From Candidatus Saccharimonadota bacterium (GTDB lineage Bacteria > Patescibacteriota > Saccharimonadia > Saccharimonadales > Saccharimonadaceae): 64,000 bases of DNA. Made by a program: the position numbers and the translations under genes. Shown here in pieces: positions 26,327 through 37,006 of this stretch. The stretch's first letter is position 1, and the number at the start of each line of letters is the position of its first letter. The stretch lies in NCBI GenBank assembly GCA_017962365.1, contig JAGCVL010000005.1:124001-188000 (forward strand), given 5' to 3'. A model generated the notes under the pieces. That model did not search any database. It was given only the letters and a program-made list of their open reading frames with translations, and was not told where the DNA came from.

Positions 26327-27037
26327 ATGAGCGGAGCGGGTGACGACCGAAGGGGGACCCCCAAAATGTTTGCGAAGCAAAATTTTGGGGGGAGAGGTCG
26401 GCAGGACCCGCCCATCCGCGGATATATTAAGATCGATAGCGCTGCGCGCGCTTTCGATTTTGATTTTAAGGGTAAGACAGTTCTTGACATCGGTTCCTCC
26501 ACTGGCGGTTTTACTGAGTATGCTTTAGATCACGGCGCAAAGAAAGTTATCGCAGTAGAGAAAGGCTCTCACCAGATGAAAGCCCCTCTCCGCTTCGATC
26601 CCCGCATCGAACTCCACGAAAAAACCGACATCTTCGACTTTACGCTAGGGGCGGGTGACGACCGAAGGGGGACCCCCAAAATGTTTGCGAAGCAAAATTT
26701 TGGGGGAAGAGGTCGGCAGGACCCGCCCTTAGACGTAATCGTCGCAGATGTCTCGTTTATTTCGTTGACGAAGGTTCTTGGGTACGCCAAAGCCAATCTA
26801 GCTAGCACCGACACGGACTTTCTCGTCATGCTGAAGCCTCAATTTGAAGCAACCCCAAGCCAGCTGCATAACGGCGTCGTCAAAAACGATACCACTCGCC
26901 GCGAGATTATTAAAGGTTTTGAATTTTGGCTTAAACAAAACGATTTCATTATTATAAAAAAACATGACAACGACTTAAAAGGCAAGACCGGCAATAGGGA
27001 AAGATTTTATTGGCTAAAGCTTGCAATTTCACATTAA
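26327..27037 (+). CDS. TlyA-like rRNA 2'-O-methyltransferase core with two in-frame palindromic inserts
   Basis: The 236-residue protein carries the TlyA/FtsJ-like methyltransferase core: VLDIGSSTGGFTEYAL (motif I), DVIVADVSFISL and MLKPQFEA. TlyA methylates ribose in 16S and 23S rRNA. The usual N-terminal S4 RNA-binding domain is absent; instead residues 2-31 are encoded by a palindromic element. Residues about 105-137, between FDFTL and LDVIVADVSF, come from a second copy. Both copies give the same peptide motif DDRRGTPKMFAKQNFGG. It starts directly after the efp stop and may be coupled to it. Activity without S4 is uncertain. Confidence 0.85.
   Translation: MSGAGDDRRGTPKMFAKQNFGGRGRQDPPIRGYIKIDSAARAFDFDFKGKTVLDIGSSTGGFTEYALDHGAKKVIAVEKGSHQMKAPLRFDPRIELHEKTDIFDFTLGAGDDRRGTPKMFAKQNFGGRGRQDPPLDVIVADVSFISLTKVLGYAKANLASTDTDFLVMLKPQFEATPSQLHNGVVKNDTTRREIIKGFEFWLKQNDFIIIKKHDNDLKGKTGNRERFYWLKLAISH
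26331..26419 (+). repeat. Palindromic element family B, copy at the start of the TlyA-like gene
   Basis: Ends CGGGTGACGACC and GGTCGGCAGGACCCG enclose a hairpin CCCCCAAAAT/ATTTTGGGGG around TTTGCGAAGCAA. Outer arms GCGGAGC and GCCCATCCGC are complementary apart from a three-base gap. Confidence 0.85.
26642..26736 (+). repeat. Palindromic element family B, second copy in the TlyA-like gene
   Basis: The core is nearly identical to the first copy 220 bases upstream, but the outer arms ACGCTAGGGGCGGGT and ACCCGCCCTTAGACGT differ and pair with each other. Confidence 0.87.
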
Positions 27038-27055
27038 AACGCTTATAATTAAACC

Positions 27056-28102
27056 ATGAACTTATTACATGGCGTGGGCGACTTCTTTTCGTTAGACGTT
27101 GGTACCAATTCGATGCGCATCGTCCAGCTTTCTGGTGATGCAAAACGCGGTTGGTCTTTGCAAAAATACGCCTATGTTCCAATTACTGCCCAGCTTACGA
27201 GTGACAATTCCGACCTCGGTCGCAAACGTTTCGGCGAAGCCATCATGGGCGCCGTGAGCCAAGCTGGCATCAAGACCAAAAACGTCGCCGTTGGCTTACC
27301 CGCCAGTAAGACTTTTACTTCCATCGTCGAGACAGATACTCTCCCTCCAAACGAGCTCGCCAAGACTTTTAAATACGAAATCGATAAATATGTCCCAATG
27401 CCCATGAGTGAGGCGAAGGCTGACTACGTCATTATCGGCCCAAGCCCCAACGATCCGGCCAGGACTGAGATTCTGGTATCATCAGTCTCAAAAGAATATG
27501 CCGAGACTACCATGGAAACCGTCGAACGTGCAGGTCTCAACATCGTCGCTATGGAGCCAGAGCCACTTGCTATGGCGCGCAGTCTCACTACGCCCGGAGC
27601 CATGGACGCCAACATGATAGTTGATTTTGGTGAAAAATCCACCGACATAGTCGTTGTCTACAAAGGCATGCCACGGCTAGTTCGTTCCATTCCTGGTGGT
27701 TTTGAAAACTTAGTCCAGACTTTGGCCAACGGCCTCAATGTTCGCACCGACCAATCCCGTGATTATATTCTCAAGTTTGGCTTGACCGAAGACAAAGTCG
27801 AAGGGCAAGTGTTTAAAGTCTTAAGTCGTCCACTCGAGATGTACGTCCAAGAGTTCACCAAATCCGTCCGTTTCTTCCAAACCAAATATCTAAACGGCAA
27901 AGTTGGCGGCATTATCTTGTCTGGTTACGCCAGTATGATTCCACTATTCTCAGAATATATCGAAGCTAAGACTAATATCCCCACCATGAATGGCAATCCA
28001 TGGCAATTTGTCCGCACTACGCCAGCCGAGCAACGTATCCTCGCGCCAGTCGCTTCAGAATTTGCTGTCGCGATAGGCTTATCAGAAAGGAGCAATGACT
28101 AA
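27056..28102 (+). CDS. pilM: Type IV pilus assembly protein PilM
   Basis: This 348-residue protein is an actin-like ATPase of the PilM family: SLDVGTNSMRIVQL near residue 13, the MIVDFGEKSTDIVV phosphate-binding block near residue 183 and ILSGYASMIP near residue 285. PilM sits on the cytoplasmic side and links the PilN/PilO complex to the pilus motors. TATAAT lies six bases before the ATG, and pilN overlaps its stop, so it opens the pilus operon. Confidence 0.93.
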   Translation: MNLLHGVGDFFSLDVGTNSMRIVQLSGDAKRGWSLQKYAYVPITAQLTSDNSDLGRKRFGEAIMGAVSQAGIKTKNVAVGLPASKTFTSIVETDTLPPNELAKTFKYEIDKYVPMPMSEAKADYVIIGPSPNDPARTEILVSSVSKEYAETTMETVERAGLNIVAMEPEPLAMARSLTTPGAMDANMIVDFGEKSTDIVVVYKGMPRLVRSIPGGFENLVQTLANGLNVRTDQSRDYILKFGLTEDKVEGQVFKVLSRPLEMYVQEFTKSVRFFQTKYLNGKVGGIILSGYASMIPLFSEYIEAKTNIPTMNGNPWQFVRTTPAEQRILAPVASEFAVAIGLSERSND

Positions 28103-29361
28103 TGTCTAAAGAAATCAAGCTCCCATCCGGTAGTGAAGCCAAGGCGAAATTCAGCGGATTGATTTACAAAATGCGTCCTGCTCATGTAGAAATCAACCTT
28201 GTCCCAGAAATCAAAGACGATGCCATCAAGGCCATCAAACTCCGCAATCTTACCTTCTTCATTTGTATTATTATTGCATCGGCCAGCATTGCGGTCACGG
28301 CAATTTTTGCCTCCATCGCCGCCGGTCAGCAAGCTATCGCTGACAGCAAAAACAAGACCATCACTACCTTATCAAACAAGCTCTTCAGCTACACCGATCT
28401 AAACAATTTCCTCACTATCAAAGACCAACTCAGCAACCTCTCCGAGATTTCTAGCAACAAGACTTTGCTTTCACGTTCTTTCAACTTCCTCTCCGCTATC
28501 ATTCCGACTGGCGCCGACACGATTACGGTCTCAGCCCTTACGATCAATCTCGCCAACGACACTCCCACGATTCAATTCGACGCCCAGGCCAATTCTGGCC
28601 AGCCACCCTACATCGACTATGCCGTTCTTGAATCTTTCAAAAAAAGCATGCAATATTTACGCTATGATTACGGCAACTATGTTGATCGCTACGGCAATAC
28701 TATCCCGGCATATTGTATGATTGAACATGGCCTAGACGGCGCGACTCTTTCCGATTCGTCAAAAGGTGTCTATGCTTACTGGCTAATCAATGGCGAAGGA
28801 TGTAATCCAGCCGCAAAGCAAGATGGCACCACGGAGCAAGATGATGAAGTTGCAGCCTACGAGACCGAGACCTATGACGGTCAGATGGTCGTTCGCATTT
28901 GGCGCACACCACAATTTGATACTTGGTACAGCGACACTAAACCAGAAAATGAAAACACGCCTTATATCGACCTTTCCGGCAACATCTCCGGAGTCGCCCA
29001 CTTTGAAAGTAGATGTACTACCTACATAGGTACTAAAAATAGCACCACTGGCGAAATAGAATGGACACCAGAAAATAATTCCTGTTTGCTCGTCCCAGGC
29101 GAAGACGGCCTCAAGATTTCCGGCTCTTCCAACGGACGTGGTGGCGACGGGGAATTAGTCCTTCGCTTCTCGGCTACGCTCGCTATTAACCCGGAGTTCT
29201 TCAAGTTTACCAATCCACATATGGTAGCTGTCGGTCCTAGTGGTCGTTACAATGTGACAGACTCTTACGTCCAAATTCAAAATATCTTTGGTGCGCCAGC
29301 CAGCGATTGTGCTGAGGGTGATACCGCCTGCAAGAACGCAGAAGGAGGTAACAATGGCTAA
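28102..29361 (+). CDS. pilN: PilN-like pilus assembly protein with extended periplasmic domain
   Basis: The 419-residue protein has the PilN N terminus (IEINLVPEI-like VEINLVPEIKD) followed by one membrane helix at about 50-75 and a coiled region. It is about twice as long as usual PilN; the excess (about residues 170-400) is an extracytoplasmic domain with four or more cysteines. It overlaps pilM by one base and pilO by eight. I infer a role in anchoring the PilM-N-O inner complex from the N terminus and operon position. Confidence 0.82.
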   Translation: MSKEIKLPSGSEAKAKFSGLIYKMRPAHVEINLVPEIKDDAIKAIKLRNLTFFICIIIASASIAVTAIFASIAAGQQAIADSKNKTITTLSNKLFSYTDLNNFLTIKDQLSNLSEISSNKTLLSRSFNFLSAIIPTGADTITVSALTINLANDTPTIQFDAQANSGQPPYIDYAVLESFKKSMQYLRYDYGNYVDRYGNTIPAYCMIEHGLDGATLSDSSKGVYAYWLINGEGCNPAAKQDGTTEQDDEVAAYETETYDGQMVVRIWRTPQFDTWYSDTKPENENTPYIDLSGNISGVAHFESRCTTYIGTKNSTTGEIEWTPENNSCLLVPGEDGLKISGSSNGRGGDGELVLRFSATLAINPEFFKFTNPHMVAVGPSGRYNVTDSYVQIQNIFGAPASDCAEGDTACKNAEGGNNG

Positions 29362-30232
29362 AGAAACCGCCATCAGCAAACGCGCAAAAATATCTCAAGC
29401 TCAGCAATATGTGCTCCTAGCAGTGCTAGGTACGGCATTTTTGCTTGGCGCCGCGATAGTTCTGATTGGTCACTTCCAGCAAGTGATTGCCTTCAACTCT
29501 AAAGTAATTTCCGAAGAAGATGCCTCAATCAAAAAATATTCCGACGTTATCAAGGGTATCGGTGTTTGCAAAAAACCAAGTGGCGATGTCTATACCGACG
29601 AAGAACTGAAAAAATGCGTACCAGACGCCATCGAAGTTTCTTCCATCCCCGGCACTTTGCGCGCCAATATTATTAATAATATGGCAAAAAACGAAGCCTT
29701 AAACTCCGTACCAAAAGAAGCAGACTCGGCATGCATTAATCCATCCACTGGCAAAAATTATACTTATGAAGAAATGAACGAGCTATACAACAAAGCCGAA
29801 AACAGTGAACAACTTTCGGCTGCCAGCACTTTGATTCAAAGTTGCTCCGCTTTGCGTATTATCCCAGACGCTCTCCCAGCCTCCAAAAACGAAGAGGCTT
29901 TACTCTCCAGTCTTAATAAGATTTTCATTATCTCAAAACTCGAGCCAGAAAGCCTCCGCCCGAGCGACAGCACCGGCAACGCTTCATTTGGTACCAACCT
30001 CGGCACCATCGGCGTGCGTCTGTCCATCCCAGAAAACACCGACACTGCCACCACCGTCAAAGTCATAGACAACATCGAACGTTCCATCCGCGAATTCAAC
30101 ATCACTCGCGCCAGCATCGAATGGAGCGAAAACAACACTCTCGACATCCAGGCTCAAGCCAACGCTTATTACATCAATAAGTCATCAATTTCTGAAGTCA
30201 TAAAAACTCTCAAACCAGGAGACCAAAAATGA
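29354..30232 (+). CDS. PilO-like pilus assembly protein
   Basis: This 292-residue protein has one membrane helix at about residues 22-45, a coiled stretch, a cysteine-containing middle and a C-terminal ferredoxin-like segment, the layout of PilO. Sequence identity to known PilO is not obvious; the assignment rests on order and topology. ATG 29354 has GGAGG six bases upstream. It overlaps the next small gene by four bases. Confidence 0.7.
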   Translation: MAKETAISKRAKISQAQQYVLLAVLGTAFLLGAAIVLIGHFQQVIAFNSKVISEEDASIKKYSDVIKGIGVCKKPSGDVYTDEELKKCVPDAIEVSSIPGTLRANIINNMAKNEALNSVPKEADSACINPSTGKNYTYEEMNELYNKAENSEQLSAASTLIQSCSALRIIPDALPASKNEEALLSSLNKIFIISKLEPESLRPSDSTGNASFGTNLGTIGVRLSIPENTDTATTVKVIDNIERSIREFNITRASIEWSENNTLDIQAQANAYYINKSSISEVIKTLKPGDQK

Positions 30233-30585
30233 AAAAAGACCTCTTGACCACCATCGTAGCCGCCGTTATCGGGCTAATCGTAGCTTACGCCCTCATTGGA
30301 GTTTTTATTCCTGAAATCAAAAGCGTCAGCTTCAAGACTCTAAGCTCAAACACTACTTACAATATCGTAGACCCAAATCCCGAAGTTTTCAATTACCGCG
30401 CTATCAACCCGACCGTAGAAGTATACGTCGGTCAATGTAAAGAATACAATGCCGCTGGCGAATGCGTCAGTGAAGTCACATTAGAAGAAGAGCAAGAGCA
30501 AAACCCAGACGAAAACTCCGAAAACACTCCAGAGCCTTCACCAGAAACCCCAGACCAGGAGACCGAAAATGGCACAACTAACTAA
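30229..30585 (+). CDS. Small membrane-anchored protein in pilus operon
   Basis: This 118-residue protein has one N-terminal membrane helix (residues about 7-29), a short domain with two cysteines, and a C-terminal tail of about 35 residues very rich in Glu, Pro and Asn. It takes the place of PilP in pilMNOP operons but I see no PilP homology; cells with one membrane do not need PilP. It overlaps the pilO-like and pilB genes and must be co-expressed. Confidence 0.6.
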   Translation: MKKDLLTTIVAAVIGLIVAYALIGVFIPEIKSVSFKTLSSNTTYNIVDPNPEVFNYRAINPTVEVYVGQCKEYNAAGECVSEVTLEEEQEQNPDENSENTPEPSPETPDQETENGTTN

Positions 30586-32332
30586 GGCTGCCGAGGAGCG
30601 GATTATCCGCTTGCTGGTTCTCGAGGGTCTTGCTGACGGCAAGGCCATTGCCGACTATTTAGCATCACGTGACCCAGCGTCTAAAACTTCATCGCTCACC
30701 GAGTTAATCGACCGCAAATTTATCAACGAAGACATGGTTGCTCGCGCCACAGCTATGATTATTGGCGTCCCCTATGTCGAACTAAAAAACATTACCATCG
30801 ACCAAGACATTCTCTCGATTATTCCTCAAGAAGCACAGGTTAGAGTCCTAGCTATCCCACTTGGTGAAAAAGACGGCCTACTAAATGTCGCCATGGCCGA
30901 TGTTACCAATGTCCAGGCTACCGACTATTTGTCAAATCTCTTAAATCGCCCGATTCGAGTTTGGATGTCGTCTGAGCACGGCATCCGCGAAATGATTGAA
31001 AAAAATCACGGCGACTTTTCTGGTATCTCGGAGGCTGTACAGGAAGGGAAGACCGAGGCTGCCGAAGACCAGACCAAGGCCAAAACCATAGTCCAGGATT
31101 CACCAATTTCTAAAGCATTAAACACGATTTTAAGCTATGCCGTCAAGACTAAGGCTTCAGATATTCATATCGAGCCGCTCTAAGATTCTCTCATCATTCG
31201 TTGTCGTATCGATGGTGTACTTCGCCGCATTATGGAGCTTCCAAAAGCTATCGCTCCAGCTTTAGTCTCGCGCGTCAAGATTCTAAGCAACCTCAAAATC
31301 GACGAGCATCGTATCCCGCAAGATGGTCAATTTGCCGTTTCCGTCGAAGGCAAAGAGGTCGACCTCCGTATTGCTATCTCGCCAGTCACTTGGGGTGAGC
31401 AAGTTATCATCCGTCTTTTGGATAAGACCGGTGTGAGTATGGATATCGAAAAAATGGGTATCACTGGGCGCGCACTTCGTTCCATTACAGCGGGCATTGA
31501 GCGGCCAAACGGCATGATTTTGACCTCTGGTCCGACCGGCTCTGGTAAATCTACCACCTTGTATGCCTTAATTCAAAAAATCAAATCCGAAGAAATCAAC
31601 ATCGTAACTCTAGAAGACCCAGTCGAGTACAAGATGGCTGGCATTAATCAAATCCAAGTCAATGTTGACGCTGGTCTTACTTTTGCATCTGGGCTCCGTA
31701 GCATTCTCCGCCAAGACCCTGACGTAGTCATGGTGGGTGAGATTCGTGACTCCGAGACTGCTTCGCTTGCCGTCCAGGCAGCGCTTACTGGCCATCTCGT
31801 CTTTAGTACTCTCCATACCAACTCCGCCGCCGGTATTTTGCCACGTCTCCTCGATATGGGCATCGAGCCATTCCTGCTCGCCTCCACTTTAAACGTCGTT
31901 ATTGGTCAGCGCCTAGTCCGTCGTGTCACCGAAAAACGCGAGCTTTATAAATCTTCCGACATTGAGACAAAAGGCATTAATGGTATCATCGGTGACATCT
32001 TGCCGCAAACCGACGCTGATGTTGCTAAAGTCAGCGAAGATTTAGGTTATCCAGGGCTCCCAGTTAGAAGTGACGAATATTATATGCTAGCTAAAGGTAT
32101 TAATACCAAAGAAACCCCCGGTGGTTACAAAGGTCGCGCCGGTCTTTACGAGACTATCGATGTAGACGAAGATATTCAAAAGCTTATTGTCTCCCGCGCC
32201 ACTTCTGCCGAAATTATGCGCCTTGCTCGTGAAAAGGGAACCATCACCATGCGTCAGGATGGTATGCTCAAAGTTCTTTCCGGTATTACAACTATGTCGG
32301 AAGTTAATCGTGTGGCGAGTGATTTAACATAA
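30569..32332 (+). pseudogene. pilB: PilB pilus extension ATPase interrupted by an in-frame TAA
   Basis: Read through, this would be a normal 587-residue PilB: N-terminal domain, GPTGSGKST Walker A near residue 322, Asp box and Walker B (RQDPDVVMVGEIRD), His box and C-terminal domain. Codon 205 (31181-31183) is TAA in the conserved sequence IHIEPL-x-DSLIIRCRIDG, where a Glu codon is expected; GAA to TAA needs one change. Both sides keep the same frame and show no other damage, so the change is recent or is a sequence error. The next in-frame ATG (31232) has no ribosome site. The zinc-binding cysteines of typical PilB are absent. Confidence 0.88.
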
Positions 32333-32361: not shown

Positions 32362-33435
32362 ATGGAACAAAAATCAACCATAAAAATTGAGACCCTGCTC
32401 GAGGAATGTATCCGTCGCAATGCGTCAGATCTCCATCTCCAGTATGGTTTACCACCGGTTCTTCGTGTGGATGGCACTTTGTTCCCGATTAGCACCGCTC
32501 CAAAGCTGGACAGCGAAATGCTAAAATCCCTGATTTTTTCCACCCTTGACGAAGACCAGCAAAAGATTTTTTTGAAAGATAAAGAGTATGATTATTCATT
32601 CGCGTTTGGCGATATTGCCCGCTTCCGCGTCAATGCTTTTCATGAACGTGGCAAAATGGCCGCCGCTTTCCGTCTCATCCCGAATGCTATCGCTCCGATA
32701 GAAGATTTAGGCTTGCCAAGTGTCGTCTCGTCATTTGCAGACTTTGCTCGTGGATTAGTGCTCGTCACTGGTCCGACCGGCTCCGGTAAATCCACCACTC
32801 TTGCTGCGCTTATCGACAAAATTAATCGTGAGAAAAATAAGCACATCATCACCATCGAGGACCCGATTGAATTCACACATAGGTCGATTCACTCAGTCGT
32901 TGTTCAGCGCGAAGTCCACTACGACACGTTCAGCTTCGCCGCTGCACTCCGTAGCGTTCTCCGTGAAGACCCAGATGTTGTCCTTATTGGTGAGATGCGA
33001 GACCTCGAGACTATCCAGGCAGCCATCACCATTGCTGAGACTGGGCACCTTGTCTTTGCATCGCTCCATACTAACTCCGCTGCCCAGTCTATTGACCGTA
33101 TGGTAGATGTATTCCCAGCGCACCAGCAGCCGCAAATTCGCACTCAACTTGCCAATATGCTTCAAGCGATTTGTTCTCAGCGACTTATCCCAGCCAATAG
33201 CGGCGGCCGTGTTGCCGCTGCGGAGATTATGATTGCTAATACCGGCATTCGTTCACTCATCCGTGAAGGTAAAACTCATCAGATTGATACAGCTATTCAG
33301 ACCGGCGGCGAGCAAGGCATGCAGACTATGGACCGCACCTTGGCAAAGCTTGTCCAGAGTGGTACTATTACATACGAGTCCGCCCGCGAATACGCTGTAG
33401 ATCCAAACGAATTAGATAGGTTAGTAGCAGGATAA
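32362..33435 (+). CDS. pilT: Pilus retraction ATPase PilT
   Basis: This 357-residue ATPase powers pilus retraction. Walker A is GPTGSGKSTT near residue 138, with the Asp box TIEDPIEF, Walker B LREDPDVVLIGEMRD and the His box ETGHLVFASLHTNSA. The AIRNLIRE-like element appears as GIRSLIREGKTHQ near residue 293, diagnostic for PilT over PilB. TGATATAAT lies six bases before the ATG, so it is transcribed as a leaderless mRNA independent of pilB. Confidence 0.95.
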   Translation: MEQKSTIKIETLLEECIRRNASDLHLQYGLPPVLRVDGTLFPISTAPKLDSEMLKSLIFSTLDEDQQKIFLKDKEYDYSFAFGDIARFRVNAFHERGKMAAAFRLIPNAIAPIEDLGLPSVVSSFADFARGLVLVTGPTGSGKSTTLAALIDKINREKNKHIITIEDPIEFTHRSIHSVVVQREVHYDTFSFAAALRSVLREDPDVVLIGEMRDLETIQAAITIAETGHLVFASLHTNSAAQSIDRMVDVFPAHQQPQIRTQLANMLQAICSQRLIPANSGGRVAAAEIMIANTGIRSLIREGKTHQIDTAIQTGGEQGMQTMDRTLAKLVQSGTITYESAREYAVDPNELDRLVAG

Positions 33436-33440
33436 AAAAT

Positions 33441-34646
33441 ATGAAAAGATTTAGATATAAAGCAAAAGAAAAATCCACCGGTAAGCCAGTAAAAGGCGTC
33501 ATCCAAGCCGAAAGCGAACGTAGCGCCGGGCAAATTTTGGTGGAGCAGGGTTACATTCCCGAATCAGTCAAAGAAGATGGCGTCGGCCTTTTTGGCGTAC
33601 GCGGACGCGTTGCTACTAAAAGTCGCATCATGTTTACTCGTCAGTTATCTATCCTTATCGGTGCTGGTCTCCCTCTCGTGACTAGCCTCCGCACCGTGGT
33701 AGATCAGACTGAAGACAAAGCCATGCGCAGCGTCGGCGAAGATATCATCGCTAGCGTCGAGTCTGGTAATCCACTTTATGAATCTTTCGCGGCTCATCCA
33801 GATGTCTTTGATAATGTCTATGTCTCACTCATTCAGGCTGGTGAAGCTTCCGGTACTCTCGACAATGCCTTGAAGCGTCTCGCCGATCAGGAAGAAAAAG
33901 ACGCCGCCATGCTTTCCAAAATCAAAGGCGCCCTCGTCTACCCAGCAATCATTCTCGTAGTCATCATCGCCGTGCTTGCTTTCATGATGATTATGGTCGT
34001 ACCAGAGGTCCAAAAGCTCTATGCCGATATGGGGGAAGAGTTGCCAGGCCTAACTCAGGCTCTAGTCAACCTTACCGACTTCTTTGCTGATTTCTGGTGG
34101 CTTGTCGCGATTGTGCTTGGCGCTACTGTTGGTGGGCTCTACTACTTCATCAAAAAGACCCCAGGTGGCCGCAAGGTTATGGATAGCATCAAGATTCACG
34201 CACCACTCTTTGGTGGTCTCTTCCGCAAGCTCTATGTTTCACGCTTTGCGCGTACTTCCGAGATGTTGCTTGCTACTGGTGTACCAATGCTAGAATCAGT
34301 CAAGATTGCTATCGCCTCTACGAGCAATACTATCATCGAAGGGGAATACACCAAGTGTCTAGATGTTATCAAAAGTGGTAAACCTCTCTCTGAGGCACTT
34401 ACTGATGTCAATTATATGCTACCGCTAGTCCCGCAGATGGCTTCCATCGGCGAGCAGTCCGGTAAGATTGATGAAATGCTCGGCCGCGCTGCTGGCGTTT
34501 ACGAAGAAGAGCTTGACAACCAAATCAATAACATCTCCACCATGATCGAACCAATCCTCATGGTCGCTATGGCTGGCGTCATCGGCATCGTTGTCGGTGG
34601 TACCTTGCTCCCGATTTACTCACTAGTGAATACGGTAGCCAGCTAA
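33441..34646 (+). CDS. pilC: Type IV pilus inner-membrane platform protein PilC
   Basis: This 401-residue protein has two copies of the GspF domain and three membrane helices (about residues 168-190, 220-240 and 370-392). Signature stretches are FTRQLSILIGAGLPLV near residue 57 and the second-copy YVSRFARTSEMLLATGVPMLESV near residue 265. It forms the platform on which PilB and PilT act. It follows pilT by five bases. Confidence 0.95.
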   Translation: MKRFRYKAKEKSTGKPVKGVIQAESERSAGQILVEQGYIPESVKEDGVGLFGVRGRVATKSRIMFTRQLSILIGAGLPLVTSLRTVVDQTEDKAMRSVGEDIIASVESGNPLYESFAAHPDVFDNVYVSLIQAGEASGTLDNALKRLADQEEKDAAMLSKIKGALVYPAIILVVIIAVLAFMMIMVVPEVQKLYADMGEELPGLTQALVNLTDFFADFWWLVAIVLGATVGGLYYFIKKTPGGRKVMDSIKIHAPLFGGLFRKLYVSRFARTSEMLLATGVPMLESVKIAIASTSNTIIEGEYTKCLDVIKSGKPLSEALTDVNYMLPLVPQMASIGEQSGKIDEMLGRAAGVYEEELDNQINNISTMIEPILMVAMAGVIGIVVGGTLLPIYSLVNTVAS

Positions 34647-34789: not shown

Positions 34790-35440
34790 CTACTGATCGT
34801 CGATACAGTAAGTACCAGCACCTTCGAGGCGATAGATGATGGCAAAGTGACGAGCAGTATCTCCGACGGCTGTCTCACCATTACATCTAGCACCGGTCAG
34901 TACGTGAACTACATAGTCCATCGTCGTACCGTCTTTTTTCGTTGCATCTCCGCCTGCAACGTACTGCAAATCTTTATATTCTACAGCGCTTCCACCTTCA
35001 CCAATATGCGTAATATCCATCCCATAATATGTACCAGCTGGATCCTGGAACTCGTTTTTCTTATTCGATCCAGCAGTCCCAGCATTCATATAATCTCTTA
35101 TGAATATGCATGACATATTATTGGTGCTTGAACTTTCGCTCTCAGTTTCTGGCCTCTTGCCACAAGCATTGGTGTCGTTGAAATCCTCTGCACCCATGTA
35201 TACTTTAGAGGTAAAAGGCAAGTTCGAACCGGCATTGGTGCCTTGGTTGTTGGTCTGATATTGGACCAACGAGGTATCTACGCGAGCCAAATCATTGCGC
35301 CGCGCCGTATCTCTCTGCGACCTTTGAAGCGCCGGGAGTGCTACGAACACCATGAGGAAGATGAGACCCGCGATAGCAAGCACGAGCACCACTTCGATAA
35401 TGGTGAAGCCCTGTTTAGAGTTGATATTTTGTTTTGCCAT
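34790..35440 (-). CDS. Type IV pilin (major-type)
   Basis: This 216-residue prepilin has a ten-residue leader ending QG, then the cleavage and helix sequence FTIIEVVLVLAIAGLIFLMV with Glu at +5. The globular part holds four or more cysteines. Prepilin peptidase is encoded at 36164-37006. An AAGGA lies eight bases before the ATG. Its segment from TARRNDLARVDTSL to the C-terminal YCIDDQ is repeated in the protein at 62057-63121, which lacks the prepilin leader. Confidence 0.92.
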   Translation of the reverse strand: MAKQNINSKQGFTIIEVVLVLAIAGLIFLMVFVALPALQRSQRDTARRNDLARVDTSLVQYQTNNQGTNAGSNLPFTSKVYMGAEDFNDTNACGKRPETESESSSTNNMSCIFIRDYMNAGTAGSNKKNEFQDPAGTYYGMDITHIGEGGSAVEYKDLQYVAGGDATKKDGTTMDYVVHVLTGARCNGETAVGDTARHFAIIYRLEGAGTYCIDDQ

Positions 35441-35542: not shown

Positions 35543-36091
35543 TTAAGTGTTGGCGCAATATCTATCAGAGCGCTCCATCTTGTGGAGAATAGCCACGCTC
35601 TTGGGATTTGCGGAATATACTACATCTATACCCTTGCAGGTTGCATTCTTTACTACATAGATGGTATAAAATTCCGGATCATCCAAGACGTTATTAGCGC
35701 AGCTGCTACCAATGGCATTGGCATCACAATCCATCACAAGTAAATCGTATTTTTCTCCATTTGGGTCGACGAAATTTTCGCCAAGATACCCGCCATAAAA
35801 ATCTTTCCAAGTGACGCCGTCGCCTAAGCCAAATGTCACTTCTTCTCCCTTAATCAGCTCGCCATCCACCGTCATTTCGCCCCCGCCCGATGATGGCAAC
35901 GATCCGCGATTATTATTTGCTTGGTAGCTCTTTAGATTGCTAATAAATTGCAACATCTGGTCTTTTCTTGACGAATCGCGCTGGGTAGCGGTAAGCGCCG
36001 GCACCCCGACGAACACCATCGCCATGATTAAACCTGCCACTGCAAGCACCAATATCACCTCAATCAAAGTAAATCCCTTAAGCTTTCTCAT
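35543..36091 (-). CDS. Type IV pilin (second)
   Basis: This 182-residue prepilin begins MRKLKG followed by FTLIEVILVLAVAGLIMAMV, a standard prepilin cleavage site. The C-terminal domain has four cysteines and ends in CAN-type sequence like the first pilin, but is otherwise diverged. ATG 36091 lies six bases after TATAAT. It is probably a minor pilin or an alternative subunit; the two pilins are separately transcribed. Confidence 0.9.
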   Translation of the reverse strand: MRKLKGFTLIEVILVLAVAGLIMAMVFVGVPALTATQRDSSRKDQMLQFISNLKSYQANNNRGSLPSSGGGEMTVDGELIKGEEVTFGLGDGVTWKDFYGGYLGENFVDPNGEKYDLLVMDCDANAIGSSCANNVLDDPEFYTIYVVKNATCKGIDVVYSANPKSVAILHKMERSDRYCANT

Positions 36092-36163
36092 GTCTCCATT
36101 ATACTGATTTATTTTTGAAAAATCAACCACTAAAGGTCCCTTAGATTATGCTAAAATACTAAT

Positions 36164-37006
36164 ATGGAAATCTTTATTCATTGTTTGATGTTTGTATTTG
36201 GCGCCTGTTTTGGCTCATTCCTTTGTTGCCAAGCGCGCCGTCTAAAGTTGAGGGAAGATAAGAAACCAAAGCTCGGTGCTCGTTCCGTCTGCCCGCACTG
36301 CCTCCATCGGTTAAAATGGTACGAAAATCTCCCCATCATTTCTTGGTTAATCCAAAAAGGGAAGTGCCGTCACTGCCATCGCAAAATCGGCGTCACCGAA
36401 ATCATCTCCGAGCTCGCTACCGGACTTGCTTTCTTGTTTGTTTCAATCGCTTTTTCCAGAGCATCACTGAGCACTGGATTTACTCCGTTTGGACTCTTCC
36501 AGGCAAACACCATCTCTCCACTTAGCTACGCTATTCTAGTCGCCACCATTCTACTTGTACTCTTTTTAATCTTTCTTTCCATCTACGACGGACTTTATGG
36601 CGAGCTTCCAACCTTCGCGCTCATCGCCTCCGCGGTCATCGCGCTAATCATCGTAATTCTTCGCCTCGTCACTGATGGATTCGCTATGCCTCGTGTCGTA
36701 GATACACTCCTCGCCATTATGGTCCTCGGCGGGACCTATCTAGTACTCTACTTAGTTTCCAAAGGCAAATGGGTCGGTGATGGTGACTGGATTTTAGGTT
36801 CCATTATCGCTGCCGTTCTCGGCACCCCTATGCTCGCCCTGATTGTACTTTTCTTATCCAACTTCGCTGCCTGTCTCATCACTTTACCTCTCGTCAAAAA
36901 AACCAAAAACCACAGAATCTACTTCGGGCCTTTTCTAGTCCTCGCCTACATAGTCACGCTTCTTATCGCTAGTACCGGCGTTATGGACTACTTGGTTTCA
37001 CTATGA
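36164..37006 (+). CDS. pilD: Prepilin peptidase / N-methyltransferase
   Basis: This 280-residue membrane protease cleaves and methylates prepilins. It has the N-terminal cytoplasmic zinc-type motif (CPHCLHRLKWYENLPIISW then CRHCHRKI, four cysteines) and about seven membrane helices. Catalytic aspartates are in SIYDGLYGELP and in GDGDWILG-type sequence near residue 207. TGCTAAAAT is six bases before the ATG. Its 3' end overlaps the convergent xer gene by 19 bases. Confidence 0.93.
   Translation: MEIFIHCLMFVFGACFGSFLCCQARRLKLREDKKPKLGARSVCPHCLHRLKWYENLPIISWLIQKGKCRHCHRKIGVTEIISELATGLAFLFVSIAFSRASLSTGFTPFGLFQANTISPLSYAILVATILLVLFLIFLSIYDGLYGELPTFALIASAVIALIIVILRLVTDGFAMPRVVDTLLAIMVLGGTYLVLYLVSKGKWVGDGDWILGSIIAAVLGTPMLALIVLFLSNFAACLITLPLVKKTKNHRIYFGPFLVLAYIVTLLIASTGVMDYLVSL

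Follow-up and report, generated by a model that had tools for sequence, protein, structure and literature searches.

The window analysed here is a stretch of 64,000 nucleotides from the genome of a Saccharibacterium, a very small bacterium of the gut that depends on a host, and it holds a pilus locus with the following genes:

27056-28102, + strand: pilM, intact (PF11104)
28102-29361, + strand: pilN-like gene, named from its operon position
29351-30232, + strand: pilO-like gene, named from its operon position, with no Pfam match
30569-32332, + strand: pilB (pilB1), the T4P-1 extension ATPase, with Pfam MshEN and T2SSE; 588 codons counting both TAA
31181-31183, + strand: in-frame TAA, codon 205 of pilB
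32362-33435, + strand: pilT, intact (Pfam and genus comparison)
33441-34646, + strand: pilC, intact, the sole PilC found in the genome (Pfam and genus comparison)
34790-35440, - strand: pilin-like gene, with the N-terminal GFTIIEVVLVLAIAGL motif visible in the sequence
35543-36130, - strand: pilin-like gene, with an N_methyl motif (PF07963)
36164-37006, + strand: pilD-like prepilin peptidase (PF06750)

This locus is of the Saccharibacteria T4P-1 type, and its gene content is close to that of the T4P-1 locus of Nanosynbacter lyticus TM7x (PMC12206443). In the passages of that report cited here, TM7x shares with the window pilM, pilN, pilO, pilB, pilT, pilC, pilins and pilD in one locus, together with a retraction ATPase. 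However, pilB in the window carries one stop, and TM7x is described in the same passages as having a second machinery set, whereas no second PilC gene was detected in the window's genome. In addition, a methyltransferase-like ORF lies at 26327-27037 of the window, and the peptide GAGDDRRGTPKMFAKQNFGGRGRQDPP occurs twice in its translation as an internal duplication.

At codon 205 the assembled pilB reads TAA, with KASDIHIEPL before it and DSLIIRCRID after it in the same frame. The gene, which is present in one copy in the genome, is therefore not a single uninterrupted reading frame. When the frame is read through the TAA, both PF05157 (MshEN) and PF00437 (T2SSE) are found above cut-off. Furthermore, the Walker A, Asp box, Walker B and His box motifs are all kept (GPTGSGKST at 321, EDPVEY at 349, RQDPDVVMVGEIRD at 381 and TGHLVFSTLHTN at 407). 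The sequence-only reading had placed the TAA at a conserved Glu in a gene whose remainder, like pilT and the rest of the locus, looked intact. Both points were borne out by the comparison. In each of the 80 PilB loci that genome_contigs yielded from other genomes, this position encodes Glu (GAA or GAG), and the window's pilB carries a single lesion, with pilT, pilC and pilM intact.

The assembly (G000) has 625,240 bases in six contigs and is 96.5% complete. Its nearest relatives are mostly animal-gut metagenome bins, and because it has six contigs and nearly all its relatives are MAGs, we infer that it resembles a metagenome bin as well. The search of the genus covered 174 genomes, one per species, and listed 150 pilB matches from 149 genomes (G000 included), the matches spanning essentially the whole gene. 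Among these 149 genomes an internal pilB stop was seen in G000 alone, and none was found in the 148 other species with a listed match. Short pilB matches in G137, G105 and G055 were considered as parallel losses and rejected, because they end at contig ends, and the match in G120 was rejected because of a run of N. Meanwhile, no internal stop was found in pilT, in the second pilB-type gene or in pilC among the genus matches listed; in G055 and G042 (second pilB-type gene) and in G084 and G003 (pilC), the stops that had been flagged proved on reading to be normal gene ends. A search of viral_contigs with the sequence around the stop found no sequence of the same species.

To estimate the age of the change, the nearest species, G007 (UBA3829), was used as the reference for pN/pS and for the scans of stops and frameshifts. 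The pilB protein has 92% amino acid identity to that species. Downstream of the stop, the identity is 94.5%, with pN of 0.042 and pS of 0.74, the latter near saturation, so that the estimated dS of about 3 is rough. Even if all 36.5 nonsynonymous differences in this part were later than the stop, they would come to 0.04 per site, to be set against that dS. About four derived replacements downstream of the stop were assigned to the window's lineage, and the branch comparison gave 4 derived changes versus 1, which is too few to call an excess, most sites being uninformative. Neither relaxed selection nor a further lesion, as in a pseudogene, was found. The remainder of pilB is thus, as judged from these differences, under strong purifying selection. 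Such constraint together with the lack of a second lesion implies that the stop would be very young relative to the species split. On the same evidence, the stop either arose in the most recent small part of the time after that split or is absent from the living population, as far as substitution counts can place it. The stop is real in the assembly, is unique in the genus among the matches listed and is not accompanied by decay. This agrees with the earlier proposal of a recent mutation or a sequence error.

To see how common such lone stops are, stretches covering the whole assembly were aligned to those of G007, and about 455 genes were compared. In a first genome-wide scan most internal stops were antisense-frame artefacts, which were largely removed by retaining the longest non-overlapping frames; the other flagged stops were, by inspection, antisense frames or over-extended starts. 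Finally, pilB was the only clean in-frame nonsense among these genes, and no frameshift pairs were found in the window's assembly over the same set. In the reverse comparison, G007 had one lone TAG in a penicillin-binding-protein-like gene (residue 146 of the aligned frame) and four frameshift candidates. The pilB stop thus resembles the lone nonsense codons of draft and metagenome assemblies, a single stop in an otherwise constrained gene, and since G007 has one comparable case, one per assembly appears to be ordinary background. The G007 gene is a transglycosylase/transpeptidase (PBP1-like) gene, its TAG lies at L206:7065 on the minus strand (G007:C59), and the window's genome has an open orthologue. 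Furthermore, a single-base change in pilB creates a stop in about 3.3% of cases, and one nonsense in about 455 genes therefore needs only some 30 wrong bases, a rate of about 7e-5. We judge that such an error rate would be plausible for a draft consensus.

We consider that the TAA most probably originated in the assembled consensus, either as a base-call or consensus error or as a minority or dead allele carried into it, and we give this reading a probability of roughly one half (0.52). On this view the T4P-1 pilB would be healthy apart from the TAA, itself very young and without function, and an intact pilB would be kept by most cells of the species. Previous studies of cultured Saccharibacteria bear on this choice. 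The passages cited from PMC10633639 list the T4P genes of S. epibionticum, with the T4P1 locus among them, as class I essential, and do not single out pilB1. Meanwhile, the cited passages of PMC12206443 state that the T4P-1 (locus-one) pilins could not be deleted in TM7x, which is a statement about pilins and not about pilB1. By analogy with these cultured relatives, one would expect a true T4P-1 null to be lethal or to face strong counter-selection. Essentiality, as far as these passages describe it, thus favours a consensus error or a rare allele over a fixed null, and because it lowers the chance of such a null we ranked the artefact or rare allele slightly ahead of a true mutation. In short, we infer that the fault lies in the consensus and not in the population. 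However, a consensus in which no frameshifts can be detected is not, by itself, an especially likely place for a substitution error, and a real mutation sampled soon after it arose would look identical.

It is therefore possible, though we hold it only tentatively, that the stop is a genuine nonsense mutation that arose very recently in the population sequenced. The cells would then lack full-length PilB1 but retain PilT and PilC, and T4P-1 extension would be abolished or reduced, perhaps partly covered by a second PilB-type ATPase. The lack of frameshift errors in the assembly speaks for such a mutation, and so does an intact second PilB-type gene in the same genome, which has only one PilC:

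G000:C1:22514-24118 (L114:8511-10118), - strand: orphan second PilB-type ATPase, intact, 535 aa, T2SSE

There is also a precedent in Acinetobacter baylyi, in which PilB and TfpB are two extension motors of the same pilus system, each compensating in part for the other (PMC8213720). The likeness lies in two PilB-type ATPases with a single PilC platform. On the other hand, the T4P-1 genes are essential in the cultured Saccharibacteria of the passages cited above, and each of the other species of the genus for which a match was listed has an intact pilB1. In addition, the second ATPase is only 34% identical to PilB1, and the relatives have one too yet keep pilB1 intact.

The second ATPase gene has a methyltransferase-like gene on one side and a YebC-like gene on the other, and it is full-length or nearly so in most genomes of the genus among the matches listed. 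In G015:C28, G018:C9, G046:C4, G066:C2 and G124:C21 its frames are longer, at 579-666 aa, and the match listed ends around residue 446-470, which suggests an insertion in the C-terminal part of the predicted protein in some species. Moreover, in 58 genomes of the genus that are at least 95% complete, PF00482 is matched above cut-off twice per genome, the number that the two halves of a single PilC would give. According to the cited passages of PMC12206443, Saccharibacteria outside clade G1 have retained locus one alone. The sequence-only reading had concluded that loss of extension with retained retraction would leave the cell without pili. This does not follow from the stop alone, since an orphan second ATPase, located outside that reader's view, is intact beside the single PilC. 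One could go further and propose that the stop is real and tolerated because this genus-wide orphan ATPase can drive the single PilC, so that these epibionts would have a two-motor, one-platform pilus system, but we regard this as improbable.

Meanwhile, pilB might still work despite the stop, through readthrough or through two fragments that are translated separately and assemble:

30569-31183, + strand: upstream fragment, 204 aa, with MshEN and the first ~29 residues of T2SSE (Pfam)
31232-32332, + strand: downstream open frame, 366 aa from an internal Met, with Walker A/B kept and the first ~50 T2SSE positions missing

Both fragments have recognisable domains, and an in-frame ATG lies 48 bases after the stop (at 31232), with a Shine-Dalgarno pairing of -2.8, near the gene-start median of -3.0. 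However, -2.8 is also ordinary among internal ATGs, of which 43% score at least as well (median -2.2), so that a start at 31232 would be neither supported nor excluded by this comparison. The break falls within the T2SSE domain, in its N-terminal part. Normal genes end most often in TAA, and no other conserved gene among the ~455 is read through. In addition, no tRNA with anticodon TTA was found. A gene that still works is thus highly improbable.

A phase-variable off state, which had also been proposed, is barely credible. The intact remainder of the gene is the one point that agrees with it. Against it, the change is a plain base substitution, no repeat tract was seen by eye around the TAA, no invertible element is involved, and a second pilB1 copy that could serve as a conversion donor is absent. 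Nothing supports recoding, readthrough, phase variation or an adapted split gene.

In our opinion, reads are needed before a lone stop codon in one assembly is taken as loss of function. If the stop is real, it would be a natural null of the extension motor, in a locus without which cultured relatives cannot live, and it would be a test of whether the second ATPase can replace PilB1. The orphan second ATPase with a single PilC, found genus-wide, is of more interest than the stop itself.
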